The notes beneath the pieces were generated by a model. That model did not search any database, was not told the DNA's origin, and saw nothing but the letters and a program-made list of their open reading frames with translations. From the NCBI GenBank assembly GCA_021774795.1, contig JAJFIR010000006.1:1-64000 (forward strand): DNA of 64,000 bases, written 5' to 3'. A program made the position numbers and the translations under genes. This document shows positions 14,781 through 55,263 of the stretch, piece after piece (the stretch's first letter is position 1; each line of letters opens with the position of its first letter). This DNA comes from Emcibacteraceae bacterium (GTDB lineage: Bacteria; Pseudomonadota; Alphaproteobacteria; Sphingomonadales; Emcibacteraceae).

Positions 14781-14781
14781 A

Positions 14782-15456
14782 ATGTACGGATCAGACGGAT
14801 TTACCATCTATGATATCCAACTTTGGGCGGAAGGCCTTAGCGTCACACTATCAATATTTCTAATTTCGTCTTTCTTGGGCCTTTTGCTTGGGTGTATTGT
14901 CGGTTTGGTAAGATACTACCGCGTACCGATTATTGGAAAAATTTTAATGATGATCAGCGAGTTTTTAAAAAATTCGCCTGTTTTGGTTCAGCTTTTTCTT
15001 GTCTATTTTGGTGTTCCAGCCTTAATTGCATTTGACATGACCCCTAATCTCGCGGCGATTATCACTTTAACCGGTAACACTACGGCATTTATCGCTGTTA
15101 TTGTCATTTCATCTATTGAAGCCATTGATTTTAAACAACTTGAGGCAGCCCGAAGCTTCGCCCTTAGTGAACGTTTGATTTTGAGTAAAATTATTTTTCC
15201 ACAAAGTCTGGCTATTGCGATGCCGCTTCTCGTTGGCCTTGCGATAAATCAACTTCAGGTTACATCGCTTATTTCGGTTATTGGTGTTATTGATTTAACG
15301 CGGGTAGGTGACATAATAAATCAAAGAACATTTGAGCCGTTTCTGGTCTGGCCGATAATTGGTGCGACCTATTTTATAATGGCAAAATCTATAGAAAGAA
15401 TAGGTGCGCGCCTCGAACGCCGGTTCAGCGCATATCATATTAGCAATCAAATATAG
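14782..15456 (+). CDS. Polar amino-acid ABC transporter permease 2 (HisQ/GltK type)
   Basis: The 224-residue protein starts at ATG 14782 (MYGSDGFTIYDIQLW), one base after the stop of the first permease, in preference to an in-frame ATG 48 bases upstream inside that gene. It has the same His/Glu/Gln/Arg permease architecture: EFLKNSPVLVQLFLVYFG (RGTP-like region) and an EAA loop SSIEAIDFKQLEAARSFALS. With its neighbour it forms the transmembrane pathway of the importer. Family length and helix count are normal. Confidence 0.9.
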   Translation: MYGSDGFTIYDIQLWAEGLSVTLSIFLISSFLGLLLGCIVGLVRYYRVPIIGKILMMISEFLKNSPVLVQLFLVYFGVPALIAFDMTPNLAAIITLTGNTTAFIAVIVISSIEAIDFKQLEAARSFALSERLILSKIIFPQSLAIAMPLLVGLAINQLQVTSLISVIGVIDLTRVGDIINQRTFEPFLVWPIIGATYFIMAKSIERIGARLERRFSAYHISNQI

Positions 15457-15476
15457 ATGAAATATGGGAGCACATT

Positions 15477-16211
15477 ATGATCGAAATACAGAATCTACAT
15501 AAAGATTTTGGCGATCTAAAAGTATTAAAAGGCGTGGACCTTTCTATCAAGCCTGGTGAGGTTGTTTCTATATTGGGGGGCAGTGGTTCCGGTAAAAGTA
15601 CAATGATGCGCTGCATTAATGGGCTTGAAAGCATTACTAAAGGAAAAATTATCGTAGATGATTTTGATGTTTCAAAATCAAATGATCTTCGAGAAGTAAG
15701 AAAAAGATGCTCGACCGTTTTTCAACAATTTGACCTCTATCCGCACCTACGTGTTATTGACAATATAACGCTTGCACCCATTGCCGTCCTTGGTCAAAGT
15801 AAAGAAGAGGCAAACGATAAAGCGATGGAACTTCTTAACAGTGTTGCTCTTGGTGACCGTGCTTCTGCTTACCCGTCTCAACTTTCGGGGGGACAAAAAC
15901 AGCGAATTGGAATTTGTCGTGCTTTGGCCATGAATCCAAGTTATCTTTTGTTGGATGAAGTGACCAGCTCGCTAGATCCGGAAATGACAGCCGAGGTTTT
16001 GGATATTTTAAAAATACTGTCAAAACAAGGTATTACAATGATTTCTGTTACTCATGAAATCGAGTTCGCCCGGGAGATTTCGGACCGTATCGTATTCCTT
16101 GATGAAGGCCGTATTTTGAAAGATTTGCCAAAAGACGATTTCTTTTCTGAATCTGGCGGTAAATCGGACCCAAGAATTGCCAGATTTCTATCAAAAATGG
16201 GTAATGTTTAA
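15477..16211 (+). CDS. Polar amino-acid ABC transporter ATPase (GlnQ/HisP type)
   Basis: The 244-residue protein has all ABC ATPase motifs: Walker A GGSGSGKST at 34-42, Q-loop around VFQQFDLYPHL at 81-91, signature LSGGQKQR at 136-143, Walker B YLLLDE at 156-161, D-loop SSLDPE and H193 of the H-loop. The FDLYPHLRVIDN segment is characteristic of the amino-acid importer branch (FNLFPHL-like). It follows the two permeases by 20 bases and precedes the glycosylasparaginase by 54 bases. A GGGAG ribosome-binding site precedes the ATG. Confidence 0.93.
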   Translation: MIEIQNLHKDFGDLKVLKGVDLSIKPGEVVSILGGSGSGKSTMMRCINGLESITKGKIIVDDFDVSKSNDLREVRKRCSTVFQQFDLYPHLRVIDNITLAPIAVLGQSKEEANDKAMELLNSVALGDRASAYPSQLSGGQKQRIGICRALAMNPSYLLLDEVTSSLDPEMTAEVLDILKILSKQGITMISVTHEIEFAREISDRIVFLDEGRILKDLPKDDFFSESGGKSDPRIARFLSKMGNV

Positions 16212-16265
16212 TATCATTTTGACCATAGTGTGCTTATGTGACAAAATGTTCAAAAAGGGATAGAA

Positions 16266-17303
16266 ATGAACCGACGTAAATTTTTACAGTCAACAGCAGC
16301 GATTGCGACAGTATCAATAGCGGCAGGGGCGGCATTTAATAAGACCGTAGCTCAAATTAACCAAAATAATAATTCAGAGGACAATATGATACTTTTAACC
16401 AATGGGACCGGTTGGGCTGGTGTTAATAAAACTGCGGAAGAATTAACAAAAGGCATATATGGTATAGATGCTATGATTGAGGGTATCAATATGGTGGAGT
16501 TGGAGCCAAAAATTCGCAGCGTAGGATATGGTGGCTGGCCAAATATTCTTGGTGTCATGGAATTCGATGGTGGCGTTATGGATGGGACTACACGCCGGGT
16601 CGGGTCGGTGGGTGCTTTAAAGCATACATACCACGCCGCGCAACTGGCCAAAGCGGTTATGACGGAACTAAACCACGTGATGGTAACCGGTGACGGAGCC
16701 GACCGATTGGCGGCTGAAATTGGCCTTCCCAAAGTTGACACTTTGATGGAAAATTCAAAAGAAGTATGGCTTCAAAAAATCAAAGACCTACTCTCGCCCG
16801 AAGAATTTGAAAAGTTTCCAGATATTCCTCTTGCGCCGTTGAATAGCCTAATTACGGACCCTGAAAAGGTCCGCGATACAACCGTATTTATGTGTAAAGA
16901 TAATAATCAGGGTATTCATGCGGCGACAAGCACGTCCGGTTGGGGATGGAAATATCCGGGGCGTCTAGGCGATAGCCCAATCGCTGGTGCTGGGTTTTAT
17001 GCAGATAGCCGTTACGGAGCAGCGGCGTGCACACATACCGGTGAAATGGCAATTCGCGCCAGCACATCGCGAACCATTATTCTTGCAATGAAACTTGGTT
17101 ATTCACTCGACGATGCTGTGAAGCTCGCCATTGAAGAAGTTTCTGAACTTGAGACCGGCTTCATTGGACCATTGGTCATTCATGCTATTGATAATAAAGG
17201 TGGTCACAAGGTTGTTTCCTACAATCTTGATAAGCCGGGTAATTACTGGTTCTGGAAACCATCAATGAGCAAGCCGGAGCAACGTGAATCGGAAATGGTA
17301 TAA
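16266..17303 (+). CDS. Tat-exported glycosylasparaginase (N4-(beta-N-acetylglucosaminyl)-L-asparaginase)
   Basis: The 345-residue Ntn-hydrolase has a Tat signal (NRRKFLQST then a hydrophobic run ending TVAQ, about residue 30). The self-cleavage site is RDTTVFM, giving T205 as the N-terminal nucleophile of the beta chain, followed by AATSTSGWGWKYPGR and GDSPIAGAGFYAD, the hallmark substrate-binding region of this family. The enzyme hydrolyses the bond between asparagine and GlcNAc, yielding aspartate and a glycosylamine. The Tat signal implies periplasmic action, so products could be taken up by the adjacent amino-acid importer. CutC and a broken ROK kinase lie in the same run, a combination fitting glyco-asparagine use. 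Confidence 0.92.
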   Translation: MNRRKFLQSTAAIATVSIAAGAAFNKTVAQINQNNNSEDNMILLTNGTGWAGVNKTAEELTKGIYGIDAMIEGINMVELEPKIRSVGYGGWPNILGVMEFDGGVMDGTTRRVGSVGALKHTYHAAQLAKAVMTELNHVMVTGDGADRLAAEIGLPKVDTLMENSKEVWLQKIKDLLSPEEFEKFPDIPLAPLNSLITDPEKVRDTTVFMCKDNNQGIHAATSTSGWGWKYPGRLGDSPIAGAGFYADSRYGAAACTHTGEMAIRASTSRTIILAMKLGYSLDDAVKLAIEEVSELETGFIGPLVIHAIDNKGGHKVVSYNLDKPGNYWFWKPSMSKPEQRESEMV

Positions 17304-17310
17304 AAAGAAA

Positions 17311-18108
17311 ATGATTAAGTGTGGCCAGTTTTGCATATGTTTATTGATGTTTTCTTATCTGGGGGTTTCCGCTTCGCAGGCTGGAAAGCTAGACGATATT
17401 AAAATGCGCGGCTTCATCAAAATTGGCGTCGCTTTGGGCGGCGAGCCCGTTGGGTTTTGGGACGAGAAAAATAATCCTATCGGCTATGACGTAGATTTTG
17501 CAAATAGACTAGCCAACAACTTGGGTGTCGAACTAAGAATGATTAATATCCACGGTGATGCCAGAATTAGCATGTTGGTGTCAGAACAATTGGATGTTGT
17601 CGTTGGCAATCTCACTGTTACAGAAGATAGAGAGAAAATAATCGATTTTTCTGATGCTTATTTTCGTACAGGATTAAGAATAGCTGTTCAATCTGGCTCT
17701 GGTATTAAAACAATTCATGATTTGGCCGGTAAGAAAGTCGTCGTCGGCCGCGGTACAAGCGGCGTTGTTTTTCTGGAAGAAATGGTACCAGATGCTGAAT
17801 TGGTCTACACTGATAAATTCGCACCTGATGGCTTACTTCTTATGCGCCAAAGGCGGGTTGATGCCGGTATAGAAGACGGCTCCTTCATTGAATATATGAT
17901 TGGTAAGCTTGGTGATATGGAACTGCTTCCAGAAAGCTACGAAAGTGGTGACATCGCGGTTGGCATAAAAAAAGACCAGCCTGACTTAGTGAGCTGGGTA
18001 AATAAGGTTATTGAAAATTATGTAAGTTCAGGCGACTATGAAAAAAGTTATAAAAAATGGTGGGGCGACAACGCGATTGCGCCAGATATTACTCACCCCA
18101 ACTCGTAA
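17311..18108 (+). CDS. Amino-acid ABC transporter periplasmic binding protein, paralogue 1
   Basis: A family-3 solute-binding protein (PBPb). The ATG at 17311 (MIKCGQFCICLL) is preferred: it gives a normal signal peptide ending near SASQA, starts 8 bases after the glycosylasparaginase stop, and follows a purine-rich stretch. The mature part shows GFIKIGVALGGEPVGFWDEKN, IGYDVDFANRLANNLGVEL and the hinge region VVVGRGTSGVVFLEE. The second binding protein, 18 bases after its end, is clearly a paralogue with near-identical motifs. It feeds the permeases at 14118 and 14782. The strand run implies co-transcription with the ABC genes. Confidence 0.9.
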   Translation: MIKCGQFCICLLMFSYLGVSASQAGKLDDIKMRGFIKIGVALGGEPVGFWDEKNNPIGYDVDFANRLANNLGVELRMINIHGDARISMLVSEQLDVVVGNLTVTEDREKIIDFSDAYFRTGLRIAVQSGSGIKTIHDLAGKKVVVGRGTSGVVFLEEMVPDAELVYTDKFAPDGLLLMRQRRVDAGIEDGSFIEYMIGKLGDMELLPESYESGDIAVGIKKDQPDLVSWVNKVIENYVSSGDYEKSYKKWWGDNAIAPDITHPNS

Positions 18109-18126
18109 AATTACACTGGAAATAAT

Positions 18127-18906
18127 ATGAAGCACATATTCTTATCGATATTGATAATGGTTCTTTCAAGCATCGGGGCTCAAGCAAATATTTTAAAGGA
18201 TATTAAAGAGCGCGGTTATATAAAAGTCGGTGTTTCGCTTGGTGGTATGCCTATGGGAGGGCGTGATGGGCGTAATAACCCAGTAGGTTATGATGTTGAT
18301 GTCGCAAACCGTATTGCCGAAGCACTGGGCGTCGAGCTTCGCATTATTGATGTTTATGGTGATGCGCGTGTCAGTATGCTGGTTTCAAAACAGCTTGATA
18401 TGGTGATTGGAAATATGACGATAACTGAAGCACGGGAGAAGATTGTTGATTTTTCGGACGCGTATTTCAGAACTGGCCTCAAAATTGCTGTTCAGCGCGG
18501 CTCAGGTATTAACAGTTTAGATGGGCTTAAGGGGAAAAAGATAGTCGTGGGTAGGGGTACGAGTGGTGCCGTCTTTCTACAGGAGGAAGTTCCGGACGCT
18601 GAAATCGTTTATGCGGATAATTTTGCACCCAATGGAATATTACTTCTTCGCCAAAGGCGGGTTGATGCAGGGATAGAAGATGGTTCACTGATTGATTTTG
18701 TAGTTCGCGATATTAAAAGTTTAGAAGCCATGCCCGGGGAATTTTTAAGCGGTGATATCGGTATGGGGATCAGCAAAGGAGAGCCGGAATTCCTTACTTG
18801 GGTCAATCAGCATATTGCCAATTATATCAATTCCGGTGACTTCGAAAAATATTATCATAAATGGTGGGGTGAAGATGCTGTCGCTCCTGATCTTTCCGCG
18901 AAATAA
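18127..18906 (+). CDS. Amino-acid ABC transporter periplasmic binding protein, paralogue 2
   Basis: A 259-residue family-3 binding protein with a signal peptide ending near GAQA (residue 20). It matches its upstream neighbour along its whole length: GYIKVGVSLGGMPMGGRDGRN, VGYDVDVANRIAEALGVEL, DARVSMLVSKQLDMVIGN, KKIVVGRGTSGAVFLQEE, RQRRVDAGIEDGS. The tandem pair must come from a duplication, and differences in the first ligand-contact strand (EPVGFWDEK against MPMGGRDGR) suggest altered ligand range for a single membrane complex. GGAAAT precedes the ATG as a weak ribosome-binding site. Confidence 0.9.
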   Translation: MKHIFLSILIMVLSSIGAQANILKDIKERGYIKVGVSLGGMPMGGRDGRNNPVGYDVDVANRIAEALGVELRIIDVYGDARVSMLVSKQLDMVIGNMTITEAREKIVDFSDAYFRTGLKIAVQRGSGINSLDGLKGKKIVVGRGTSGAVFLQEEVPDAEIVYADNFAPNGILLLRQRRVDAGIEDGSLIDFVVRDIKSLEAMPGEFLSGDIGMGISKGEPEFLTWVNQHIANYINSGDFEKYYHKWWGEDAVAPDLSAK

Positions 18907-19864: not shown

Positions 19865-20800
19865 ATGAAAATTTATAATTTGACTATTAGCATCCTAATT
19901 TTACTGACATTTGGTATATCCGCGAATGCGCAAGATAAATTATTCGCTGACGTGCCGGAAGGTGCGCAAGCAGTTTCATTTTTGGGGAAAACCTTATCAA
20001 TGCTGGCGCCAAGTCAAAAACTTCTCGATAATTTAATATTTGCAAAAGCAGATTATGCTAAAGACCCTGATAATGCAGAAAATATCTTGTGGTATGGTCG
20101 CCGTGTGGCATATACCGGGGAATTCAGAAATGCTATCGAAATTTTTACAGAAGGTATAAAAAAACATCCAAATGATGCGCGCTTTTATCGCCATAGAGGG
20201 CATCGTTACATAACCATTCGTGAAATTGATCGCGCAATTTCTGACCTTGAATTAGCCGCAAGTTTAATTGTTGGCAAAGCGGATAAAATTGAACCCGATG
20301 GTGCGCCAAACGCGGCCAACATTCCCGTAACAAGTACTCATAGCAATATATATTATCATCTTGGACTTGCTTATTATCTTAAGCATGATTTCGAGAATTC
20401 GTTGCGTGTTTATAGAATGGGCCAAAACCTAAATTTAAATGACGACAATATCGCCTCAACCGCCCATTGGATATATATGAACCTTCGCAGGCTTGGCAGA
20501 GACGAAGAAGCCAGACAGTCTCTGAATAATATCACGAAAGATATGGATATTATCGAAGTTCACAATTATCATACCCTCGATCTTTTTTATAAAGGAGAAG
20601 TTCCGGCGGAAGAAGTTCTGAATGCAGATCCAAATGTTCCGGCTGGAGCAAGCATTACATATGGCGTTGCCAACTGGTATCTTTATAATGAGGATATTGT
20701 AAAGGCCTATGAATTGATGGAAAAATTCATGAATACAAATTCGTGGGGAGCTTTCGGCTTCATTGCTGCCGAAGTTGATCTAAAACAACGAAATAGATAG
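19865..20800 (+). CDS. Exported TPR protein, paralogue B
   Basis: The 311-residue protein has a signal peptide ending near SANAQ (residue 22), then DVPEGAQAVSFLGKTL and the same TPR blocks as paralogues A and C: YGRRVAYTGEFRNAIEIF, FYRHRGHRYITIREIDRAI, IYYHLGLAYYLKHDFENSL and STAHWIYMNLRRLGRDEEA. The C-terminal segment GVANWYLYNEDIVKAYELMEK also matches. It is soluble-periplasmic, whereas the next gene encodes a lipoprotein version. AGAGAG before the ATG acts as ribosome-binding site. The motif RGHRYITIR is invariant in all three and may mark a binding surface. Confidence 0.78.
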   Translation: MKIYNLTISILILLTFGISANAQDKLFADVPEGAQAVSFLGKTLSMLAPSQKLLDNLIFAKADYAKDPDNAENILWYGRRVAYTGEFRNAIEIFTEGIKKHPNDARFYRHRGHRYITIREIDRAISDLELAASLIVGKADKIEPDGAPNAANIPVTSTHSNIYYHLGLAYYLKHDFENSLRVYRMGQNLNLNDDNIASTAHWIYMNLRRLGRDEEARQSLNNITKDMDIIEVHNYHTLDLFYKGEVPAEEVLNADPNVPAGASITYGVANWYLYNEDIVKAYELMEKFMNTNSWGAFGFIAAEVDLKQRNR

Positions 20801-20823: not shown

Positions 20824-21843
20824 ATGAAATTATATAAGAAGGTTTTATTGTCATCAGCGGCTTTAATGATTGCGTCATGTGCGGCAGAAAATACGGATAA
20901 TACAGACCAAGATGAAATGGCTATGGCTGATCAAGCGGCGGTTGTTGCGCCCGATATGGCTGAAGATATGCCGGCAAGGATGACTAATATCTTACCCGAT
21001 GTTCCGGAAGGCGCGCAGGCAGTTTCTCTGCTTGGAAAAACTCTGGTGAGCGGGGCGCCAAGTCAAAAAATCCTGGATAATTTAGCCACCGCAAAAGCAA
21101 ATTATGATGCTGACCCAATGGACGCTCAAAATATAATCTGGTATGGCCGCCGTACGGCTTATACAGGTGATTATCGCCGGGCGATCGAGATATTCTCAGA
21201 AGGTATTGAAAAGCATCCTGATGATTCTCGCCTTTATCGTCACAGGGGACATCGCTACATAACCATTCGTCAATTCGATAAGGCAATTGCCGATTATGAA
21301 ATCGCCGCAAAACTTATTGAAGGGCAAGAGGACAGTATAGAAGAAGACGGCGCGCCCGGACCTTCCGGTATTCCGGTGTCAAGCAAACATAGTAATATAT
21401 GGTACCATCTTGGCCTTTCATATTATTTGGTACATGACTGGGAAAATGCACTTCGCGCTTACCAAACAGGACATGATTTAAAAGTTAATGACGATAATAT
21501 TGTTTCAACGGCTCACTGGCTTTATATGATTTTAAATAGAATGGGTCGCCCCGAAGATGCCAAAAAAGCCATCGAAGGCGTCACTGCCGACATGAATGTG
21601 CTTGAAAATTTCTCATATCATAATCTGGTACTTTTTTATAAAGGTGAGATTCCGGCCGAAGAAATGTTAAATGTTGATCCCAATGATCCAAGTGGTGCGG
21701 CTGTTGCGTACGGTGTTGCCAACTGGTACCTGTATAATGATCAACCAGAAAAAGCTTATGATCTAATGCAACAGTTCGTAGAAACTGACAGTTGGGCTTC
21801 ATTCGGGTTTATCGCCGCCGAAGTCGAACTTATGATGAAGTGA
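20824..21843 (+). CDS. TPR lipoprotein, paralogue C
   Basis: The 339-residue protein begins MKLYKKVLLSSAALMIASC, a lipoprotein signal with the lipidated cysteine at residue 19, then an acidic low-complexity linker (about 20-55) before DVPEGAQAVSLLGKTL. The TPR body repeats the blocks seen in A and B (YGRRTAYTGDYRRAIEIF, LYRHRGHRYITIRQFDKAI, IWYHLGLSYYL, STAHWLYMILNRMGRPEDA). It is therefore a membrane-anchored member of the family, next to the soluble one. It ends 4 bases before the rhodanese gene, so co-expression is expected. Function unknown. Confidence 0.8.
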   Translation: MKLYKKVLLSSAALMIASCAAENTDNTDQDEMAMADQAAVVAPDMAEDMPARMTNILPDVPEGAQAVSLLGKTLVSGAPSQKILDNLATAKANYDADPMDAQNIIWYGRRTAYTGDYRRAIEIFSEGIEKHPDDSRLYRHRGHRYITIRQFDKAIADYEIAAKLIEGQEDSIEEDGAPGPSGIPVSSKHSNIWYHLGLSYYLVHDWENALRAYQTGHDLKVNDDNIVSTAHWLYMILNRMGRPEDAKKAIEGVTADMNVLENFSYHNLVLFYKGEIPAEEMLNVDPNDPSGAAVAYGVANWYLYNDQPEKAYDLMQQFVETDSWASFGFIAAEVELMMK

Positions 21844-21847
21844 TTTT

Positions 21848-23395
21848 ATGGAATTTAGATCACCTCAATATATAAAGCAGCTTCTTGGTGAAAAACAGGA
21901 AGTTGCTTTTATCGATGTACGTGAAGCTGCTGAATATGGAAGCGGCCATCCATTTTTTGTATCGCACATTCCATATAGTGTTTTAGAAGCAAAAATATGG
22001 AACTTTGTTCCTTGTAGGGTAACGACAGTAATATTGATAGATGGCGCCAACGGTATATCTGAAAAAGCGGCACACCATCTTGAAGCGGAGGGATACGAAA
22101 ATATCGTTATTACAGAAGGAGGCATAAAAGCGTGGTCCGATGCGGGGTATGCTCTTTATGAAGGGATTAGTGCGCCGTCTAAATCGTTTGGCGAAATAGT
22201 CGAACATGAATTGGGAACGGTTTCTATATCAGCCCCCGATCTTAAAGCCCGAATGGATACCGGTGATAATAATTTCATTATCTTAGATGGCCGCACACCG
22301 GCGGAATATAATAAAATGACGATCCCGGGCTCAACATCTTGTCCAAATGCTGAATTAGTGCTGCGGTATAAAGCGATGGTGCCAAACTCCAGCACTGACA
22401 TAATTATCAATTGCGCGGGAAGAACCCGTAGTTTAATCGGCGCTCAATCACTTCGAATGTTAGGCCTTCCTAACAAAGTTTATGCGCTTGAAAATGGCAC
22501 GATGGGTTGGAAATTAGCGGGATTGGAGCTCGAATATGGTGCGAAACGAAGCTTTCCCATCGAGCTTGATGAGGAAATAATAATTGATACAGAAATCAAA
22601 GCGAATGAATTGATTGATGAATATTCGGTTGATGTGATTGAACACGAGTGTTTTCAGGAATGGCGTTCAGATCGCAGCAGAACTACCTACCTTTTTGATG
22701 TAAGAACCGAAGAAGAATATAAGAAAGGCTATCTCAAAGAAGCGGTACATGCGCCCGGCGGGCAACTTATTCAGGCAACCGACCAATGGTTTGCAACAAG
22801 GAATGCCCGAATAGTTGTTTACGATGATTTACGTATTCGGGCAGTTATGACCGTCATATGGCTTAAAGGGATGGGGCATGATGCATATGTATTAAATGAA
22901 CAAACAACCCTGCCTTTGATCCTGAATAGAGTGACGAAGAAACGCTGTGGCAATGCTGAATTTATAGGTCCTGATGAAATTGATATTTTAAATTCAACTA
23001 TTATTGATGTTCGAAGTAGCCAAGAGTATCGCGACAGCCATATAGTTGGCGCAATATGGTCGATTAGACCAAATTTGGGCGAGCAAAAGGTAAAAGAAGA
23101 AGTTGTAATAATCGCTTCCGATCTTGGCACCGCAGATCTTGCGGCAAAAGAATTTCCAGATAAGAATACATACTTCTCTCTTAGTACTCCCGAGCAATGG
23201 CAAAAGGAAGGAATAGAAACAGCCTCAACGCCAAACGATCCACCTGACGAAGATCGCATTGATTTTCTTTTTCATACTCATGGTCGACATTCGGGTAATC
23301 TGGATCATGCCAGAGAATATCTTCGCTGGGAGATCGGATTGCTCGCACAACTTGATGAGCAAGAAAAATCAGTACTTAGACCGTTAAAAGCTTAA
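21848..23395 (+). CDS. Four-domain rhodanese-like sulfurtransferase with a single active-site cysteine
   Basis: The 515-residue cytoplasmic protein contains four rhodanese-like repeats: about 1-105 (AFIDVREAAEYGSGH), 115-230 (FIILDGRTPAEYNKM), 250-370 (YLFDVRTEEEYKKGY) and 375-460 (TIIDVRSSQEYRDSH). Only the second has the catalytic loop, INCAGRTRSLIG with C189; the matching loops of the others read DGANGIS, DDLRIR and SDLGTA. One domain should carry persulfide and the rest be structural. It ends the plus-strand run and overlaps the SLC13 gene tail by 4 bases. Beside several class V PLP enzymes, some of whose relatives release sulfur, it could accept sulfane sulfur; that link is inference. 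Confidence 0.85.
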   Translation: MEFRSPQYIKQLLGEKQEVAFIDVREAAEYGSGHPFFVSHIPYSVLEAKIWNFVPCRVTTVILIDGANGISEKAAHHLEAEGYENIVITEGGIKAWSDAGYALYEGISAPSKSFGEIVEHELGTVSISAPDLKARMDTGDNNFIILDGRTPAEYNKMTIPGSTSCPNAELVLRYKAMVPNSSTDIIINCAGRTRSLIGAQSLRMLGLPNKVYALENGTMGWKLAGLELEYGAKRSFPIELDEEIIIDTEIKANELIDEYSVDVIEHECFQEWRSDRSRTTYLFDVRTEEEYKKGYLKEAVHAPGGQLIQATDQWFATRNARIVVYDDLRIRAVMTVIWLKGMGHDAYVLNEQTTLPLILNRVTKKRCGNAEFIGPDEIDILNSTIIDVRSSQEYRDSHIVGAIWSIRPNLGEQKVKEEVVIIASDLGTADLAAKEFPDKNTYFSLSTPEQWQKEGIETASTPNDPPDEDRIDFLFHTHGRHSGNLDHAREYLRWEIGLLAQLDEQEKSVLRPLKA

Positions 23396-25312: not shown

Positions 25313-26830
25313 ATGATAGAAAAGTATTTAATGCTTTTTCTTTATCTTTCCATATTGGTTTTTTTAAGTTTTATCGCCTCCAAAAGAGTTAAGAATATAA
25401 AAGATTATGTTACCGGGAATAAAACTCTTGGATTTTGGGTTGCTGCATTTTCCGCGCAAGCAACGGGTGAAAGTGCTTGGCTTCTTTTAGGGCTAACAGG
25501 CGCGGGGGCCATTGCAGGGGTCAGCGCATACTGGGTAGTAGTCGGTGAAATGATTGGCGTTTATGTTGCGTGGTTTCTCATGGCTGAACGTTTTAAGAAA
25601 CTGACAGATCATTATGACAGTCTAACAATGACAGATTATTTAGTCAGTCGCTTTAAAGCTAAAACCCATTTATTAAGAGTGGTTGCCTCTGGAACATTAG
25701 CCGTTTTTATCTTGATATATATTAGTGCGCAAATCGACGCGACGGGTTCCGCTTTTGAAAGATTTCTCAATTGGGATTACCATACGGGAGCGGTAGTAGG
25801 GTTCATTATCGTTGTTTTTTACAGTGTGGTCGGTGGTTTCTTGGCCGTCGCATGGACGGATATGTTTCAGGGTGCCGTAATGGTAGGTAGCCTTTTTATT
25901 CTTCCGGTTGTGGCCTTTTTTATGCTTGGTGAAAGTGATCATCTTTACGAAGGGTTAAAGAATATTGACCCCAGCCTGATAAGTCTTTCCGGTACCGGAG
26001 GGTTAATGGGCATTGCAACTATACTTGGTATGATGCTGATAGGCCTCGGTTTTATGGGGTCGCCGCAGGTATTTGCCCGTTTCATTGCTGTTAAAAACCT
26101 TGGAGAAATCAAACGGGGAAGATGGGTCGCACTTGGTTTTACGTTTTTGGTGGATGCGTCTGCTGTCAGTATAGGGTTGCTTGGCAGATATTTGTTCACA
26201 GAGGTTGGTTCAGACCCCGCTGCTACATTGGGTAACGGCGCGCAAAATGTATTACCAACGCTTGTTGAGTATGTATTCCCTGTTTTAATTGTTGGACTTT
26301 ATGTGGCAGCAGTACTTTCTGCGATCATGTCAACAGTATCTTCATTGCTAATCGTCGCGGCAGGCTCCATCACACATGATATATATAGGAAAATTTATAA
26401 TGCGGATTTGGGCGGCATAAAATCAGCTAAACTGTCGCGAATTCTTACTGTAATATTTGCTGTCCTTGCATTGGCGATAGCACTAATAGTTTCATTTGTC
26501 TCACCGAGTAGAACTATTTTTTGGTTTGTAATATTTGGCTGGTCCGGTATTGCTGCAACATTTTGCCCGATGGTGATTATGTCGCTTTTTTGGCGCGGGT
26601 TTACTGCGAGAGGAGCCATATCTGCTATGATAGCTGGTTTTCTATCAATCCCAATATTTAGGTTTGTGATGCCCTTGGTACCAGAACTGGGCGATTATTT
26701 TGTGGCGCTGGAATCATTGCCACCCGCGTTTTTAATGTCCTTCATTGCCGGATATATTGTTAGTAAATTAAAGCCGGATAGTGAACTTTCAAAGACATAT
26801 CAAAGTGAAATTGAGGCCATAGAACAATAA
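25313..26830 (+). CDS. Sodium:solute symporter (SSS family, PutP-like)
   Basis: The 505-residue protein has about 13 membrane segments and SSS family motifs: IASKRVKNIKDYVTGNKTLG early, AFSAQATGESAWLLLGLTG at about 42-60 (the sodium and substrate helix), SVVGGFLAVAWTDMFQG near 165-180, GSPQVFARFIAVKN, and ADLGG... before the late helices. This layout is closest to proline/sodium symporters, so an amino-acid substrate is likely but not proven. It is transcribed divergently from the SLC13 gene and immediately precedes the PLP enzyme array, with 16 bases to the broken first copy. Confidence 0.9.
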   Translation: MIEKYLMLFLYLSILVFLSFIASKRVKNIKDYVTGNKTLGFWVAAFSAQATGESAWLLLGLTGAGAIAGVSAYWVVVGEMIGVYVAWFLMAERFKKLTDHYDSLTMTDYLVSRFKAKTHLLRVVASGTLAVFILIYISAQIDATGSAFERFLNWDYHTGAVVGFIIVVFYSVVGGFLAVAWTDMFQGAVMVGSLFILPVVAFFMLGESDHLYEGLKNIDPSLISLSGTGGLMGIATILGMMLIGLGFMGSPQVFARFIAVKNLGEIKRGRWVALGFTFLVDASAVSIGLLGRYLFTEVGSDPAATLGNGAQNVLPTLVEYVFPVLIVGLYVAAVLSAIMSTVSSLLIVAAGSITHDIYRKIYNADLGGIKSAKLSRILTVIFAVLALAIALIVSFVSPSRTIFWFVIFGWSGIAATFCPMVIMSLFWRGFTARGAISAMIAGFLSIPIFRFVMPLVPELGDYFVALESLPPAFLMSFIAGYIVSKLKPDSELSKTYQSEIEAIEQ

Positions 26831-26846
26831 CTATAATAGGTGACGT

Positions 26847-27650
26847 ATAGATAGGCGTCATTTTTTAAAGTCAATCGGGGCATTAGCCGCCACTTCGCTT
26901 GCGATGAAGACAACAGCCGTAAAAGCATTAGCAGCCGAAGATGCTTTTTGGGAAAACATCATTTCACAACATGATGTATCAAAAGATTATATTAATATGG
27001 ATGCTGGCCGCTGGGGAATTATGGCCAATCCGGCACTTGAAGAATTTATAAGGCGAACGCGCCATATCACGCAGAATAGTTCATATTATGCGCGAAATTT
27101 GAATATTTCGCCAGAACTGGGCGGACAATACAGGGAGGAAAACCAAATCATTCCCAAAGTTATCGCAGGTAGTTTAGGTGCTGATGAAGACGAGGTGGCC
27201 TTGACCCGAAATGCCACCGAAGCCTTGCAACATTTAATAAGCGGCTATAATAAAATTAATCCTGGTGACACCGTAATTTATTCGGATTTGGATTATGGCA
27301 GTATTTGTAGGGAAATGGATTATCTTGCAAAAAATAACGGCGGAAATGTCGTCACATTTAATATTTCGGAGCCGGCGACGTACGAGAACATAATTGATGC
27401 TTACGAGAGCGTACTGACGCCACAAGATGAACGCATGCATGCGGGGATTACATCTTTTAGGATAAAAGGGGCTACTAGTCGCGCGGTAAATGACACATTG
27501 TGTAACACTTTGCTAAGTAAATATAACATTAACACAAACCCGATAAGTGGTATAAATATGGGTTCTGTAGTTCGTATTGTTCCCGGGCTATATAATAACA
27601 TGGCTGATATGGATAAATTTAGTGCGGCACTAAAAGATATTCTGGGATAA
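26847..27650 (+). pseudogene. Broken Tat-exported class V PLP enzyme, copy 2
   Basis: The frame is open from 26847 and reads I-DRRHFLKSIGALAATSLA, the Tat signal of the paralogues, but the initiator is ATA where the others have ATG; AGGTGA sits 4 bases before it. The next ATG (26904) would remove the signal. Compared with the copy at 30437, residues about 182-341 are missing in frame: IDAYE is joined directly to a segment matching LTPSDERMHAG. That deletion takes out the cofactor aspartate and the Schiff-base lysine. The remainder aligns well, ending in a normal KDILG terminus. It cannot be an active PLP enzyme. Confidence 0.85.
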
Positions 27651-27769
27651 TTCTTGTGTGAAATGTTGCAAGTTTGAGTAAGGGTGGTACAGTATTACAT
27701 GATCACGCTGGCAAAAGCCAAGTAGCGTACAATAATATAAAAAAATAGCGAAAACCGGGAGGTTTATTC

Positions 27770-29047
27770 ATGGATAGACGTAAATTTTTACAATCAACTG
27801 CTGCACTGGCATCTGTTTCTATGGCAGGCAGCACTATTGCCGCAAATGCGCAAGCGATGATGGATAAAGATAGTGATGAATATTGGAAGACCATTATGGC
27901 ACAATATAAAGTCACAGACGAATTTATAAACTTGAACGCCGGGCATTGGGGCATTATGTCTGAACCCGTATTGGAAGCATTTGTGAAACACACTCGTTTC
28001 ATTAACGCCTATAGCTCATATTTCGTGGGACACGGCAGGGCCGCAATCCCAACGGCCAGAAATTACGGTCTTGAACGCGCGGAAGTTATCAGCATGCTTG
28101 CCGATAAACTAGGCGTAGGAGCCGATGAACTTGTTTTAACCAGGGGCGCGACTGAATCGCTGCAATTGTTAATCAGCGGATATAATAATATTGAACCGGG
28201 TGATACGGTACTTTTCGGTGACGCTGCATATTTCAGCATGGAAGCGGAAATGCGCCATCTTAAAGTTCATCGCGGCGCAAATGTAGTCGAATTAAAAGTT
28301 CCCGATCCGGCCTCTCATGATAACATAATTGCACTATTTGAGCAGGGTATTAAAGATCATCCAAAAACCAAGCTAATATTACTTACACATATGGCAAACC
28401 GCACAGGAGTAATTATTCCATTGAAAGAGATAACGGCAATGGCACGTTCGCACGGTGTGGATGTTATCGTTGATATGGCACATTCGTGGGGTCAAGCCGA
28501 TTTTGATTTCGCGGATCAAGGTGTCGATTTTGTTGGATTTAATCTTCATAAATGGATCGGTGCGCCACTCGGTGTTGGCCTTATGTATATAAAAAAAGAA
28601 CGCATGCTGGATATAGATACAAAAAGCAGCAAAGGTCCGCCGGGTAATGACGACATCAATAACCGTGCACAGACGGGTACGATGAATTTGGCGGCAGTTA
28701 TGGCAGTTAAAGACGCTTTAATTTTCCTTGATAAAATTGGAATAGAACATATTGACCGCCGATTTAAAGCGCTGCGTAATCAATGGACGAAAGAATTTCT
28801 TGATGATGACCGCGTTGATATCCTTAATCCGGAAGATGAAAGAATGCATGCAGGATTAACATCTTTCCGTATTAACGCGCACAAAGATCCGCGTGAACTG
28901 GGCAAAACTTTGCTGCGGGATTATGGAATTAATACCGCGCCTATTCCTGCGTTAAATGGTATTCGGGTTGCGCCGGGGCTTTATAGTTCTAAGGCCGACA
29001 TGGACGCGCTTGCAGTTGCGATTAAAGATATCGTGAATAAAATGTAA
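27770..29047 (+). CDS. Tat-exported class V PLP enzyme, copy 3
   Basis: The 425-residue protein has a Tat signal (DRRKFLQST, cleavage near ANAQA, residue 29). Catalytic features are LTRGATESLQ at 123-132 (cofactor phosphate), D235 in VDMAHSWGQ and K261 in FNLHKWIGAPLGVG. The C-terminal small domain includes DERMHAGLTSFRI and GIRVAPGLY, typical of the isopenicillin-N-epimerase-like branch. Its reaction is not deducible. It differs from copies 4 and 5 by having RGATES where they have RNISES or RNATES. A GGGAGG ribosome-binding site lies before the ATG. It is the first intact gene of the tandem array. Confidence 0.9.
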   Translation: MDRRKFLQSTAALASVSMAGSTIAANAQAMMDKDSDEYWKTIMAQYKVTDEFINLNAGHWGIMSEPVLEAFVKHTRFINAYSSYFVGHGRAAIPTARNYGLERAEVISMLADKLGVGADELVLTRGATESLQLLISGYNNIEPGDTVLFGDAAYFSMEAEMRHLKVHRGANVVELKVPDPASHDNIIALFEQGIKDHPKTKLILLTHMANRTGVIIPLKEITAMARSHGVDVIVDMAHSWGQADFDFADQGVDFVGFNLHKWIGAPLGVGLMYIKKERMLDIDTKSSKGPPGNDDINNRAQTGTMNLAAVMAVKDALIFLDKIGIEHIDRRFKALRNQWTKEFLDDDRVDILNPEDERMHAGLTSFRINAHKDPRELGKTLLRDYGINTAPIPALNGIRVAPGLYSSKADMDALAVAIKDIVNKM

Positions 29048-29125
29048 TTTATTTGATTGATCACGATCATAGTTGATCAGTCGAATTTGAAATTCTAAAT
29101 ATTTTCAAATGGGAAAATTTGAATT

Positions 29126-30418
29126 ATGAACAGACGTAAATTTTTACAATCGACGGCGGCTCTTGCCCCTTTCCCGGTAGTTGCGCAAACCGGTATAACC
29201 AAAGCACAGGTAGCCTTGGACAAAACAAGTGAGGCTTACTGGCAAACAATTATTGATCAATATGATGTTGCCGAAGGTTATAATAATTTAAACGCAGGTC
29301 ATTGGGGGCTTATGTCAATACCGGTAATGGACGCGTACCTAGAGAATACCCGCAAAGTAAATAGGGATTATTCTCTTTATGTCGGTAGCGGCAAAGCGGT
29401 TGATCCCGACAGGTTTGACAATTATTGGCAAGAAGCGGACGAAGTCATTGCGTTTCTGGCTAATAAGCTAAATGTCGGTGCGGACGAGCTTGTATTAACG
29501 CGAAATATTTCAGAATCGATGCAATTATTATTTGCCGGCTATAATAAATTAAGGCCGGGCGATAGCGTTGTCTTTACCGATACTGATTACGGAAGCATGC
29601 AGGCTGAGGTAAGGTATTTGGAAGAACGTCGTGGAGCCAACGTTATTTCAGTTAGCGTTCCGGATCCCGCGTCTTATCAAGGGTTTATCGATTTTTACGA
29701 AAAAGTGATCAAAGATAATCCGACTATAAAATTGATGTTGTTAACACATATGAGTTCACGGACAGGCGTCATTGCACCTGTAAAAGAGATTATAGCGATG
29801 GCAAAATCACATGGTGTTACCGTAATTTTAGATGTTGCCCATTCGTGGGGACAGTTTGATTTCGATTTCGGTGATTTTGGTGCCGATTTTGCGGGCTTTA
29901 ATCTTCACAAATGGATCGGTGCACCGCTTGGCCTTGGGCTAATGTATATTCGCAAAGACAGGATTTTGGATATTGATCCAAAAAGTGGAAAAGGCGGCAA
30001 AGGCAATACCGAAATTAAAAACCGTATACAAACAGGAACAGTAAATATGCCGGCAGTGATTACGGTTCCAAAAGCAATAGAATTTCAAGATAGCATTGGC
30101 ATAAAACATATCGGAAGACGGTTCAGAGACTTGCGTAATCAATGGGTTAATCAGATGATTGATGATGACCGTTTTGAAGCTTTAACGCCGCAAGATGAGC
30201 GTATGTATGCTGGCATAACATCATTCCGGTTTAGGGCGATAACTTCTGATGAGGATTACGGAAAATTACACCGCACATTGCTATCAAAATATAAAATTAA
30301 TGCCTCCCCTTACGGTGGTATGAGAAGAGGTGGTGCTATTCGGGTTAGCCCAGCGCTATATAGCTCAAAAGCAGATATGGACGCACTGGCATTAGCGTTA
30401 AAAGACATTTTAGGATAA
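29126..30418 (+). CDS. Tat-exported class V PLP enzyme, copy 4
   Basis: The 430-residue protein begins NRRKFLQST with a Tat-type hydrophobic stretch to about residue 27. Its key residues are in register with copy 3: LTRNISESMQ at 124-133, D236 in ILDVAHSWGQ, K262 in FNLHKWIGAPLGLG. Sequence conservation with copies 3 and 5 is high through the active site (THMSSRTGVIAPVKE) and weaker in residues 70-105, which lie where substrate access is expected in this fold. That pattern suggests similar chemistry on different substrates. It follows copy 3 by 78 bases and precedes copy 5 by 18. Confidence 0.9.
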   Translation: MNRRKFLQSTAALAPFPVVAQTGITKAQVALDKTSEAYWQTIIDQYDVAEGYNNLNAGHWGLMSIPVMDAYLENTRKVNRDYSLYVGSGKAVDPDRFDNYWQEADEVIAFLANKLNVGADELVLTRNISESMQLLFAGYNKLRPGDSVVFTDTDYGSMQAEVRYLEERRGANVISVSVPDPASYQGFIDFYEKVIKDNPTIKLMLLTHMSSRTGVIAPVKEIIAMAKSHGVTVILDVAHSWGQFDFDFGDFGADFAGFNLHKWIGAPLGLGLMYIRKDRILDIDPKSGKGGKGNTEIKNRIQTGTVNMPAVITVPKAIEFQDSIGIKHIGRRFRDLRNQWVNQMIDDDRFEALTPQDERMYAGITSFRFRAITSDEDYGKLHRTLLSKYKINASPYGGMRRGGAIRVSPALYSSKADMDALALALKDILG

Positions 30419-30436
30419 TTATAGGAAAAAATTATT

Positions 30437-31699
30437 ATGGATCGACGTCAATTTTTACAATCATCTGCGGCTCTTGCCACAATATCAATGGCGGGTATTC
30501 CCGTAATTGGGCAATCTCAGGAAATAAGAGATGCTCATGATGAAAATTTTTGGGATATTATAAGAGCACAATATGAAGTAACTGACGAAGTTACGAATTT
30601 GGAAGCTGGTTACTGGGGAATTATGTCGATACCGACGACACAAGCCTATATTCAACATACGCATTTTGTGAACCAATTTAATACTTATTATGTGCGCCGC
30701 CAGTATTTCAAAGATTATGATATTATTATTAAGCGGCTTGCTGAGAAGCTGGGTGTTGGTGATGATGAAATCGTATTGACGCGCAATGCCACTGAATCGT
30801 TAGTCAGCTTAATAAGCGGTTATAATAAATTAAGCGAAGGTGACACGGTGGTATATGCCGACACTGATTACGGAAGCATGCAGGCAGAAATTCGTTATCT
30901 CGAAAAATATCGTGGGGTCAAAACAGTAAAAATTGATATGCCGGAACCCGCTTCATATCAAGAAACCATTGACGCATACGTAAAAGGGCTTGATGAAAAC
31001 CCAAAATGCAAAATGATGTTGGTTACACACGTGAGTAACCGCACAGGATTAATCACTCCGGTGAAAGAAGTGACGGCAATGGCGCGCGCACGCGGTGTTG
31101 ATGTCATACTTGATGCGGCTCATTCGTGGGGTCAGTTTGATTTTGATTTTCAGGATCTCGGCGTTGATTTCTGCGGGTTTAATTTACATAAATGGATGGG
31201 TGTTCCACTTGGTGTTGGCATGCTCTATATCCGAAAAAACCGCATACTGGATATTGATCCTCTGCGAGGTGAAGCAGGACCGGACAACGATAACGTCAGA
31301 ACAAGAGTTCATACTGGAACTGTTAATTTCGCTTCTGTATTAAGTATACCGGCGGCTCTCGATTTTCAGGAAAATATAGGCATTAAGAATATCTCAGCAC
31401 GACTACGAAGTTTGCGAAACGAGTGGGTAGATGGACTTAAAGACAATAAAAATATAGAGATTTTAACGCCAAGTGACGAACGAATGCATGCAGGGATTAC
31501 ATCGTTTCGCATTAAGGGGAAAACAAGCGCGCAGGACAATGCTGACCTCATGAAACTATTGACGGACAAATATAAAATTTTCACAGTGGCTATTGGTGGA
31601 TTAGCCAATGGTGGTGCAATACGGGTTAGTCCGGCACTTTATAATTCAAGAGATGACGTTAGGAAATTAGTAGCAGCGCTAAATGATATAACGGGCTAA
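30437..31699 (+). CDS. Tat-exported class V PLP enzyme, copy 5
   Basis: The 420-residue protein carries the Tat signal DRRQFLQSS with a hydrophobic core to about residue 26. Cofactor residues are LTRNATESLV at 114-123, D226 in ILDAAHSWGQ and K252 in FNLHKWMGVPLGVG. An eleven-residue shortening near 85-100 relative to copy 4 again falls in the region around the substrate entrance. It precedes the M14 carboxypeptidase gene by 25 bases on the same strand, so the array and the peptidase are probably one transcript. AGGAAAA before the ATG is a modest ribosome-binding site. Confidence 0.9.
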   Translation: MDRRQFLQSSAALATISMAGIPVIGQSQEIRDAHDENFWDIIRAQYEVTDEVTNLEAGYWGIMSIPTTQAYIQHTHFVNQFNTYYVRRQYFKDYDIIIKRLAEKLGVGDDEIVLTRNATESLVSLISGYNKLSEGDTVVYADTDYGSMQAEIRYLEKYRGVKTVKIDMPEPASYQETIDAYVKGLDENPKCKMMLVTHVSNRTGLITPVKEVTAMARARGVDVILDAAHSWGQFDFDFQDLGVDFCGFNLHKWMGVPLGVGMLYIRKNRILDIDPLRGEAGPDNDNVRTRVHTGTVNFASVLSIPAALDFQENIGIKNISARLRSLRNEWVDGLKDNKNIEILTPSDERMHAGITSFRIKGKTSAQDNADLMKLLTDKYKIFTVAIGGLANGGAIRVSPALYNSRDDVRKLVAALNDITG

Positions 31700-31724: not shown

Positions 31725-34301
31725 ATGATGAAATTTAGATTTTTGCGAACTGTATTATTGGTACTCGCGGTGACGTTGCCGACTGTGGCGATAGCTCAGG
31801 ATAACCAAATAACGACACCTGAAGAATTTTTTGGCTTCCAAATGGGCGAAGATCGGAAGCTCGCGAATTGGCATAAGCTGGTGGAGTATTATGAACTTGT
31901 TGGTAGTCAGAGTCCGCGTATGCAGGTGGTTGATATGGGCGAAACTGCAATGGGCAACCCATTTTTAGCCCTTTATATTTCGACCCCGGAAAATCTTGCC
32001 AACTTAAATCAAATCAAAGCCTATAATAATAAACTCACCGATCCACGTGGTATCGCGAAGGCAGAAATTGATGATGCCGTTGAAAATGGTAAGGCGATCG
32101 TCGTTCAATCGTTCGGTATTCATTCTAATGAAGTTGCTGCCCCGCAAACTGCGGCGGAACTGGTTTACGATATGTTGACGCGCGATGACGAAGACATGAT
32201 GCGTATATTAAATAACACATTGTCAATTTTAATGCCTGCCTTCAATCCGGATGGTCAAATCATGGTCGCCGACTGGTATAATAAAAATGTAGGTACGGAA
32301 TATGAAACGTCGCCACTGCCCTGGCTCTATCATAAATATATTGGCCATGATACAAACCGCGACGCATTCATGCGTAATATGCCATCATCACGTTACGGCG
32401 CAGATATAATTTTTACAGACTGGAAGCCGCAATCATATATCGACCATCATCAGATGGGTGCGTATAGTGCACGTCTTTATGTACCGCCATATTCAGAACC
32501 CATTCGCCCTGCGGGTGATCCATTGGTTTGGCGAGAAATGTCCTGGTATGGTGCACATATTGCACAAGATGAAGAAATTCATGGCAAGTCAGGTGTATTA
32601 AATGCATCCATGTATTCTGGCTGGGGGCATTTCGGCTTTCACTGGATTACACCGTTTCACAATATTGCCGGAATGTTAACAGAATCAGCTTCAACGCGTC
32701 TTGGAACACCAATATATATTCATCCAGATCAATTGACCGGGGCCAGATACGGTTTCCCGGAATATGAAGAACAAATTTCCTTTCCTAACCCGTGGAAAGG
32801 GGGATGGTGGCGTGTGCGCGACATTGTGGAACAACAGAAAATCGCCGCACTAGCTTTATTGGATATAAGCGCAAAAAACCGAAAAATGATTTTAAAAAAC
32901 TCATATATTAAAGCGTCGCGTCAAATTGAACGTGGCGCAAACGGGGAAACAAAAGCTTACATTATACCCGCCGATCAGCATGATAGCTTGACCAAAGATA
33001 AAATGATTAATGTTCTTCTCGGCCAGGGGATAGAGGTCCATAAAGCACCAAATGATTTTACACACGAAGATCATAATTATGCCGCAGGTTCATACGTCGT
33101 ATCAATGGAACAGCCGAAGCAGGGACTTGTACGTTGGCTTTTGGGACGGACTTTTTACCCGGATAACAGCTACACTCGGGAAAGAGACGGCTCACCCAAA
33201 CGGCCTTACGATATGTCGACGGATAATGTAGCAGAATATATGGGAGTTGACGTGACGCCTGTCGCGACAAAAGTAACGGCGCGGTTAAATGTTATCACTG
33301 ACAAGCAGTTAACCTGGGTTGGTAATGTTGTAACTAATTCCAATGGATATGTGGTTGACGGACGGCTAAACGATAGCTTCAGTGCCGTAAACTTGCTGTG
33401 GAATGCGAATATTGATGTGAAACGCATAGACAAAAATGGTGCCGGGTTACGCGCCGGGGACTTTATCGTCTCGGCCGATGTATCTGCGGAAATATTGAAT
33501 GATATTGCGAATTCTACCGGTGTTAGTTTTAACGCTCTTTCAGTGAGCGCGGACGATATTGGCCGACCTATTGAAAGGCTTCGCATCGGAATGTATAGAA
33601 GGTATCTTGCCGGAAATATGGATGAAGGCTGGACCAGGTTTTTGCTGGAAGAGTTTAAATTTCCTTTTGATCAGCTTTATGACAAAGATATTACCACTTC
33701 GAACTTGAATAAATACGATGTTGTGATCATACCAAATGACGGTATGGAGCGCCTAACCGGAAGCAATGAAGAGTATGCGGAGCAATTTCCGCCGGAATAT
33801 AGAAGCGGTCTCAAAGATGACGAGGCTGAGGCACTTGAAGAATTTGTTAAGAAAGGGGGTTCTCTCATTATGTTAGGTGACGCAGGCGAATTTGCCATAG
33901 ACAAATTCAATCTTCCCATCACTAACGCGGTTGAGGATTTGAGCACAAAAGAGTTCTGGGCCCCTGGTACGACGCTTCGTATGAAATTTAACAACCAAGA
34001 ACCTTTTGCGTACGGTATGCCGGATGTTGGAGTAGCGTTATTTCTTAGATCCAATGATGTCTATCAAGTTCGTAATAACACCAGAAATTATCGAGTTAGC
34101 CGAATTGCGTCTTATGTAGATCGTGATATCATGGAAAGTGGCTGGTTGCTGGGTGAAGACCATATCGCGAGTAAGGCCGTAGCTGTTTCTGTTCAGCACG
34201 GTAATGGAAAGGTAATTCTTACTGGCATAAGGCCCCAATTCAGGGCTCAAACACATGGGACTTTTAAATTGCTGTTTAATACTCTTGTGGACTTCGAATA
34301 A
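31725..34301 (+). CDS. Exported M14-family zinc carboxypeptidase with C-terminal extension
   Basis: The 858-residue protein has a signal peptide ending near VAIAQ (residue 25). The M14 peptidase domain (about 35-400) shows zinc ligands H133 and E136 in GIHSNEVAAP, the DTNRDAF motif at 209-215, the third histidine in SYIDHHQMG at 237-244 and the catalytic glutamate E320 in GMLTESAS. About 450 further residues form beta-rich and GATase/ThuA-like regions (YDVVIIPNDGMERL, LEEFVKKGGSLIMLGDAG). Such large secreted M14 proteins trim amino acids or modified peptides at the C-terminus. Location in the periplasm beside exported PLP enzymes suggests it supplies their substrates. Confidence 0.9.
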   Translation: MMKFRFLRTVLLVLAVTLPTVAIAQDNQITTPEEFFGFQMGEDRKLANWHKLVEYYELVGSQSPRMQVVDMGETAMGNPFLALYISTPENLANLNQIKAYNNKLTDPRGIAKAEIDDAVENGKAIVVQSFGIHSNEVAAPQTAAELVYDMLTRDDEDMMRILNNTLSILMPAFNPDGQIMVADWYNKNVGTEYETSPLPWLYHKYIGHDTNRDAFMRNMPSSRYGADIIFTDWKPQSYIDHHQMGAYSARLYVPPYSEPIRPAGDPLVWREMSWYGAHIAQDEEIHGKSGVLNASMYSGWGHFGFHWITPFHNIAGMLTESASTRLGTPIYIHPDQLTGARYGFPEYEEQISFPNPWKGGWWRVRDIVEQQKIAALALLDISAKNRKMILKNSYIKASRQIERGANGETKAYIIPADQHDSLTKDKMINVLLGQGIEVHKAPNDFTHEDHNYAAGSYVVSMEQPKQGLVRWLLGRTFYPDNSYTRERDGSPKRPYDMSTDNVAEYMGVDVTPVATKVTARLNVITDKQLTWVGNVVTNSNGYVVDGRLNDSFSAVNLLWNANIDVKRIDKNGAGLRAGDFIVSADVSAEILNDIANSTGVSFNALSVSADDIGRPIERLRIGMYRRYLAGNMDEGWTRFLLEEFKFPFDQLYDKDITTSNLNKYDVVIIPNDGMERLTGSNEEYAEQFPPEYRSGLKDDEAEALEEFVKKGGSLIMLGDAGEFAIDKFNLPITNAVEDLSTKEFWAPGTTLRMKFNNQEPFAYGMPDVGVALFLRSNDVYQVRNNTRNYRVSRIASYVDRDIMESGWLLGEDHIASKAVAVSVQHGNGKVILTGIRPQFRAQTHGTFKLLFNTLVDFE

Positions 34302-55176: not shown

Positions 55177-55263
55177 ATTGTTGATCATATCGGATTAGTA
55201 TATTAAGTATTATGGGTATTAATAAAGTATAACTTTCAATCAGTTTTAGTTGGGAAATAAAAT

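Follow-up and report, generated by a model that had tools for sequence, protein, structure and literature searches.

A conserved tandem array of predicted Tat-exported, PvdN-related PLP enzymes in an Emcibacteraceae bacterium

What might an alphaproteobacterium do with several pyridoxal 5'-phosphate (PLP) enzymes that are encoded head to tail and appear to carry export signals? The question is raised by a 64,000-nucleotide stretch of DNA from an Emcibacteraceae bacterium (assembly GCA_021774795.1, contig JAJFIR010000006.1, positions 1 to 64,000; hereafter the window), which belongs to a genome assembled into 58 contigs (3.93 Mb in total; completeness 99.5%, contamination 3.9%). On the forward strand, in 5' to 3' order, lie an SSF sodium:solute symporter gene, a broken class V PLP gene (brk), three intact copies (A, B and C) and an M14 peptidase gene. 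A first-pass annotation had placed three intact open reading frames (ORFs) and one broken frame here, with Schiff-base lysines at K261, K262 and K252 in A, B and C and at K265 in a further protein of the window, D, and both the layout and the lysine positions are borne out. Copy A (27770-29047, 425 residues) opens with the twin-arginine translocation (Tat)-type signal MDRRKFLQSTAALA and has an insertion near residue 87; copies B (29126-30418, 430 residues) and C (30437-31699, 420 residues) also have Tat-type signals, C being without the insertion, and brk occupies 26847-27650. Gaps of 78, 18 and 25 bases lie 3' of A, B and C, respectively. The intact copies are 51-59% identical to one another and 43-48% identical to brk. 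The Aminotran_5 model (PF00266) matches the intact proteins at E-values of 3e-38 to 2e-52, which excludes a chance match, with scores of 132-179 bits for A-D and 32.9 for brk, above the gathering cut-off of 21.5.

The residues on which such enzymes depend can be followed through 94 distinct family rows from outside the window together with A-C. Numbered as in C and leaving gaps aside, K252, D226, H229 and W253 are present in 97/97 rows, and Y145 and R396 in 96/96. Of 91 distinct long family rows, 84 have the motif RRx[FLVIM] in their first 90 residues, versus 12/130 for other proteins from window and genus loci and 172/985 for those from all loci; for a stricter twin-arginine pattern the counts are 75/114 family rows (duplicates kept) versus 3/130 and 16/985. 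By eye, four of the seven rows without the motif have probable mis-called starts, and the other three have RRxW, RRxT or RRxA. A TatC gene is present in the genome, and A-C are predicted to be exported through Tat. Together with the constraint described below, the Tat motif, the TatC gene and the conserved catalytic residues uphold the notion of a tandem PLP enzyme family with predicted export signals. The earlier claim that every copy bears a twin-arginine signal holds for the intact copies, which start with RRxFL-type sequences, and only in part for brk, which has the two arginine codons but no usual start before them.

How old is this arrangement? Among 80 genomes of a relatives set, the family (E <=1e-60) was detected in the genome itself, in all 12 of its genus relatives, in 0 of 19 genomes from other genera of the same family, and in 12 of 48 genomes from other families of the order, the last with a single match each. 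The A-C tandem is found in 11 of the 12 genus relatives, the contig of the twelfth (G004) stopping inside C; the architecture that the first-pass annotation proposed to look for in related genomes does recur there, in a conserved neighbourhood. A tree of 61 rows places A, B, C and brk in clades of their own; those of A and C are genus-wide, and B and brk each pair with a sequence from relative G003 only. Four intact copies follow one another on a single contig of G003, and a fifth is truncated by a contig end. Between A, B and C and their G003 orthologues, the proportion of differing nonsynonymous sites (pN) is 0.13-0.15 and that of synonymous sites (pS) 0.73-0.77, a saturated level, which indicates that all three copies are under constraint; because of this saturation, the ratio of nonsynonymous to synonymous rates (dN/dS) is not usable for most pairs. 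The array is old and constrained. In a class-wide sample, at least 2 of 211 genomes beyond the genome itself have the family at E <=1e-90, a count that may be too low, as the best 8 candidates per genome were scored. A wider scan (tblastn, E <=1e-3) gave the best 80 loci of at least 571 relatives, looser kin included, and the nearest named records among those listed are metagenome-assembled genomes labelled Kordiimonadaceae, Emcibacteraceae or Alphaproteobacteria.

The copies do not vary evenly along their length. An insertion of about 10 residues near residue 87 is common to A, B and brk; C and 8 of 9 outside rows are without it, and the remaining row (L081) has a shorter one. When 10 A and 10 C orthologues were compared (partial copies excluded), the positions that are invariant and alike in both sets numbered 2 of 23 in loop 78-100, which adjoins the insertion of A and B, 4 of 23 in segment 380-402 and 9 of 18 around the lysine, the alignment-wide background being 111 of 448 columns. 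The suggestion that variation is greatest at the substrate entrance and least at the active site is thus partly sustained, with low invariance in the first two segments and higher invariance around the lysine, in segments that were picked after viewing the alignment. Perhaps the copies perform one chemistry on several substrates, a possibility that fits the tree and the insertion common to A, B and brk.

What, then, became of the broken copy? In brk (forward strand), no usual start precedes the arginine pair: the codon before it is ATA, with a stop (TGA) in the same frame two codons upstream of that, and the first ATG, at 26904, is downstream of the pair; from there to 27650 the ORF is open. 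Initiation at ATA is rare yet possible. Alignment shows that about 150 residues, including the Schiff-base lysine, have been lost in frame. In G003, the orthologue of brk (L082, 4299-5254; cut by a contig end) is 70% identical over 190 residues and has its lysine, behind the same symporter, which argues that brk decayed after the two species split. Over the first 186 residues, brk is 71.0% identical to its G003 counterpart, and A, B and C are 77.0%, 77.7% and 72.3% identical to theirs. No fast decay of brk was seen, what remains being about as conserved as the neighbouring copies, and for the same reason the loss looks recent.

Which known enzymes does the family most resemble? By profile, the closest protein of solved structure is PvdN, which aligns from the signal to the C-terminus (E 1.2e-38 and 2.2e-37) and whose DxxH, HKW and C-terminal arginine share columns with the array family. 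AlphaFold models are confident outside the signal, with predicted local distance difference test scores of 91.7 for C and 88.6 for A. When the model of C was searched with Foldseek, cysteine desulfurases came first by E-value, and PvdN had the highest TM-scores among the matches listed (0.80/0.85). A second structural comparison, of C only, placed PvdN first (Z 44.4, root-mean-square deviation 2.2 A over 371 residues), followed by SufS 4w91 (Z 42.2) and C-DES 1n31 (Z 41.9). A common fold does not establish function, and membership of PvdN, EgtE and kynureninase was rejected on scores, those with the SufS model also falling short of its cut-off: A-C score 88.5-103.4 bits and D 141.1 with the PvdN model (NF051467; cut-off 650), 109-141 and 147 with SufS (TIGR01979; cut-off 475.1), and 57-68 and 71 with EgtE (TIGR04343; cut-off 400), while with kynureninase (TIGR01814; cut-off 246.4) A scores 27.8 and C 39.1, this model not being among the best 25 for B. 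C lies under the cut-off of every NCBIfam model that it matched, and the E-values of the other 41 members suggest scores of a similar order.

Sulfur chemistry deserves particular attention given this fold. Cysteine desulfurases of the SufS/Csd type have a catalytic cysteine in a C-terminal loop. A and B contain no cysteine at all, so that cysteine desulfurase activity, and with it a housekeeping role of that kind, is excluded for both; C has two cysteines, at 191 and 246, both before the lysine, and the C-terminal-loop cysteine is therefore missing from all three. Carbon-sulfur (C-S) lyases of the EgtE, Egt2 and C-DES type work without a catalytic cysteine, and in the periplasm such enzymes might break down sulfoxides or conjugates of cysteine. 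The cysteine-free state of A and B would suit such a role, the EgtE model matches 42/42 family members at E <=1e-10 (best 1.4e-30), C-DES is among the top structural matches, and the block includes a protein with four rhodanese stretches (21848-23395, 515 residues, no evident signal). However, the EgtE scores of A-C fall well short of that model's cut-off and PvdN outscores it by profile and structure alike, and we consider a C-S lyase unlikely.

We lean instead, with moderate confidence, towards A-C being periplasmic PvdN-related PLP enzymes that process the free amino-acid ends of small peptides or conjugates. The computed basis of this proposal comprises fold, residues, Tat-type signals, orthology, constraint and neighbourhood, from which we infer location in vivo, residue roles, substrate, reaction and physiology. 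Within the class V PLP enzymes of fold-type I, A, B and C would belong to a distinct, PvdN-related subfamily with Tat signals; they would bind PLP and fold in the cytoplasm, then cross Tat and work in the periplasm. In this superfamily, the residue at the tyrosine/histidine column stacks on the cofactor, and the C-terminal arginine binds carboxylate. The lysine, Asp226, His229 and Tyr145 may hold and tune the cofactor, and R396 of C may grip the substrate carboxylate. The substrates would present a free alpha-amino and a free alpha-carboxyl group, as would the terminus of a conjugate, or of a small peptide or one linked through a side chain. The copies would stem from old duplications in the lineage of the genus, after which their substrate ranges may have been split, perhaps via the insertion-bearing loop.

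Precedents for such chemistry exist outside the cytoplasm. PvdN and PtaA cross Tat with PLP bound and act on the glutamate of pyoverdine, which has free alpha groups, PvdN converting it to succinamide and PtaA to alpha-ketoglutarate, and PtaA occurs also in species that make no pyoverdine (PMC6206403). PvdN and the Pseudomonas aeruginosa aminotransferase PA2531 are listed among Tat substrates (PMC6085387), and PvdN, CcbF and Cap15 are described as O2-using PLP enzymes (PMC7497351, PMC11794154). The array enzymes may likewise catalyse a PvdN/PtaA-like reaction (decarboxylating oxidation or deamination) and not sulfur transfer, and O2 chemistry would free exported enzymes of the need for a keto-acid partner in the periplasm. 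Conversely, if they were PtaA-type transaminases, a periplasmic keto acid would serve to restore their PLP; the export of PtaA, its presence in species without pyoverdine and the listing of PA2531 all speak for this, but the top PDB matches are PvdN and desulfurase/lyase-type enzymes, and we regard it as very unlikely. With regard to the racemase, lyase or desulfurase activities first suggested for this locus, desulfurase fails for A and B, and PvdN-like oxidation or transamination would seem to have better precedents than racemase or lyase.

Could the substrate be a siderophore, as for PvdN? No Condensation domain of a non-ribosomal peptide synthetase was found in the 99.5% complete genome, by a search that was positive in 4/14 control genomes. 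This makes a pyoverdine-like product of its own unlikely, and tailoring of such a siderophore was rejected as the role of the array; a foreign siderophore may still be a substrate.

What do the neighbouring genes suggest? Upstream of the array is the SSF symporter (25313-26830, forward), which scores 327 bits with the PutP model, under its cut-off of 515.5, and downstream is the M14 zinc carboxypeptidase-type protein (31725-34301, forward), with an N-terminal signal by eye. Further upstream, all on the forward strand, are a protein of peptidase family S58 (7921-9114), which we take to be of the DmpA type and which has an N-terminal signal by eye, a PALP-family PLP enzyme (9135-10100; no signal by eye), and an amino-acid-type ATP-binding cassette (ABC) importer (14118-18906) with two permeases, an ATPase and two family-3 solute-binding proteins. 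Between the latter two lies an Asparaginase_2 protein of the isoaspartyl-peptidase type (16266-17303), whose Tat-type signal is much like that of B. These two proteins are not homologous and begin with near-identical signals (MNRRKFLQSTAA...), whether shared or convergent. The importer, the Na+ symporter and the M14, S58 and isoaspartyl-type peptidases would together point to peptide and amino-acid scavenging, which, given peptidases and amino-acid importers nearby, is the likeliest setting.

Some of this neighbourhood extends through the genus. The SSF symporter is upstream of the array in 9/9 of the 12 relatives whose contig reaches that far, and the rhodanese protein is found in 6/6 relatives whose stretch extends there (G002, G007, G009, G010, G011 and G012), CutC being present in five of those six and not in G012. 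Asparaginase_2 is also near the array in three relatives, G002, G010 (cut) and G011. Of these, G002 has the ABC permeases and ATPase as well, which are not at that position in G011, and a CitMHS-type transporter is missing between in both G002 and G011. In G011, the S58 and PALP genes stand in the same row with D beyond, divergent as in the window. The M14 gene was found in 5/80 genomes, all of the genus (the genome itself, G001, G003, G005 and G008), and always adjoins the array. A second PLP-peptidase pair, suspected from the length of a large protein beside the divergent genus copy in L066, was rejected, because by eye the sequence of this neighbour resembles a MacB-kind ABC permease. The idea that adjoining exported peptidases supply the substrates is weak as a rule, as only 5/13 genus genomes have the M14 gene. 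The same surroundings might instead suit exported racemases or epimerases of the CefD (isopenicillin-N-epimerase) kind, which would invert D- or L-residues so that the peptides can be taken up. CefD, whose target is a terminal residue with free alpha groups, shares with the array family its fold class and C-terminal arginine, and would find peptidases and a PALP enzyme close by; there is, however, no positive sequence sign of epimerisation in comparisons that included no CefD model or structure, and we judge such an activity quite unlikely.

A further clue to the substrate comes from outside the genus. Once the genus loci (including L095) and their named duplicates were dropped, 81 loci remained, and 15 of these have an orthologous TonB-dependent receptor just upstream of the PLP gene and in the same orientation, so that an outer-membrane importer accompanies the enzyme there. 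The best matches of the 15 receptors are 54-94% identical to another of the set. In L116 the best receptor piece ends 893 bases before the PLP match, and in the others the distance is at most 260. All 8 receptors that were scanned have Plug and beta-barrel domains, and in Hyphomonas jannaschiana (L136), the sole locus scanned for them, a sigma factor and FecR precede the receptor. Eight of the 15 receptor-linked loci are rows of the tree, and all eight belong to one ten-row clade (its other two rows, L142 and L077, being without receptor), versus 0/21 of the other outside rows. Among the 80 relatives, with the best 12 candidates per genome scored and a possible undercount, receptors of at least 50% identity were found only in G041, G078 and G079, all of which have the PLP family with the receptor adjoining; the next-best were one with 42% identity along most of its length and one with 45% along a piece of 413 residues. 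Six loci (L115, L116, L132, L136, L139 and L140) have, 3' of the PLP gene and on its strand, a second stretch that resembles a TonB receptor (48-51% identity). It is tempting to speculate that the family consists of O2-using PvdN-like oxidases for periplasmic editing of TonB-imported or peptidase-released molecules, which would deaminate or decarboxylate an amino-acid end with no keto acid as partner, with the tandem paralogues of the genus differing in substrate, a more specific version of our proposal that we put forward as doubtful.

Several observations weigh against the proposal that A-C are PvdN-related periplasmic processing enzymes. Within the window's genus, a TonB receptor of at least 50% identity was found in 0/13 genomes (best 12 candidates per genome), and the genus stands outside the TonB-linked clade, so that the link is indirect for A-C and bears on the family; moreover, 66 of the 81 outside loci have no upstream receptor. 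The neighbourhood is also patchy, with M14 in 5/13 genus genomes and interrupted by stop codons in G001 (L181/L182, G001:C21), the importer beside the array in one relative only (G002), and S58 and PALP in one only (G011). In structure, the Foldseek E-value order puts desulfurases ahead of PvdN, which ranks 44th, and both PvdN and SufS have histidine at the column of the family's tyrosine (Y145), so that PvdN chemistry need not carry over. Finally, inspection by eye shows no obvious cleavage site in the signals of B and C, and L081 (from G057), a more distant row with an uncalled ORF that stands outside the conservation count, is without the C-terminal arginine.

The fifth PLP protein of the window proved to be a different matter. 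D (6479-7774, reverse strand), a class V PLP protein that is PvdN-like, has a Tat-type signal and is conserved in the genus, had been regarded as a divergent fifth copy of the array; at 25.5-25.7% identity to A-C, and with DGAQ and QKW motifs versus DxAH and HKW, it was rejected as such and belongs to a separate subfamily. Close, full-length orthologues of D occur in 9 of 11 relatives searched, G003 having a contig-edge piece and G006 a weaker paralogue only, and D is on the same contig as A in G002, G009, G010 and G011. The S58 gene is divergent from D in the window.

Three TPR proteins of the block upstream of the array (13132-14082, 19865-20800 and 20824-21843) have N-terminal signals by eye, and the first two start alike (...VPEGAQAVS...). 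Elsewhere in the window, three flagellin-like genes (48814-49635, 50249-51067 and 56413-57243), whose translations have alike starts by eye, flank apparent sugar-modification genes at 51795-56283.

What does this locus add to the biology of PLP enzymes? The array is genuine and conserved, an expansion in tandem of an enzyme type already known, the class V PLP protein with a Tat signal. Periplasmic PLP enzymes described in the literature that we found are PvdN and PtaA, both from work on pyoverdine, together with PA2531 as a Tat substrate; among the top results of a literature search of partial coverage, no paper dealt with the family or with a TonB receptor-PLP gene pair. A separate family with its own export signals, a tandem in one genus and a TonB link elsewhere would make periplasmic PLP chemistry broader than siderophore tailoring, and, if the oxidase-editing idea were true, such chemistry would belong to everyday nutrient scavenging instead of being peculiar to pyoverdine. 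The TonB receptor link provides a handle on the substrate.

Set beside known systems, the array family shares with SufS/CsdA the fold, the lysine, the aspartate and the C-terminal arginine, and differs in its export signal; from the EgtE/Egt2 and C-DES lyases, with which it has the fold in common, it is set apart by that same signal. PtaA, likened here by description only, is a Tat-exported PLP enzyme that occurs also without pyoverdine (PMC6206403). PvdN of Pseudomonas (PDB 5i90/5hh9) is only 18-19% identical to the array family, yet it combines, over the full length of the protein, the two features by which A, B and C are recognised, a Tat signal and a class V PLP fold.

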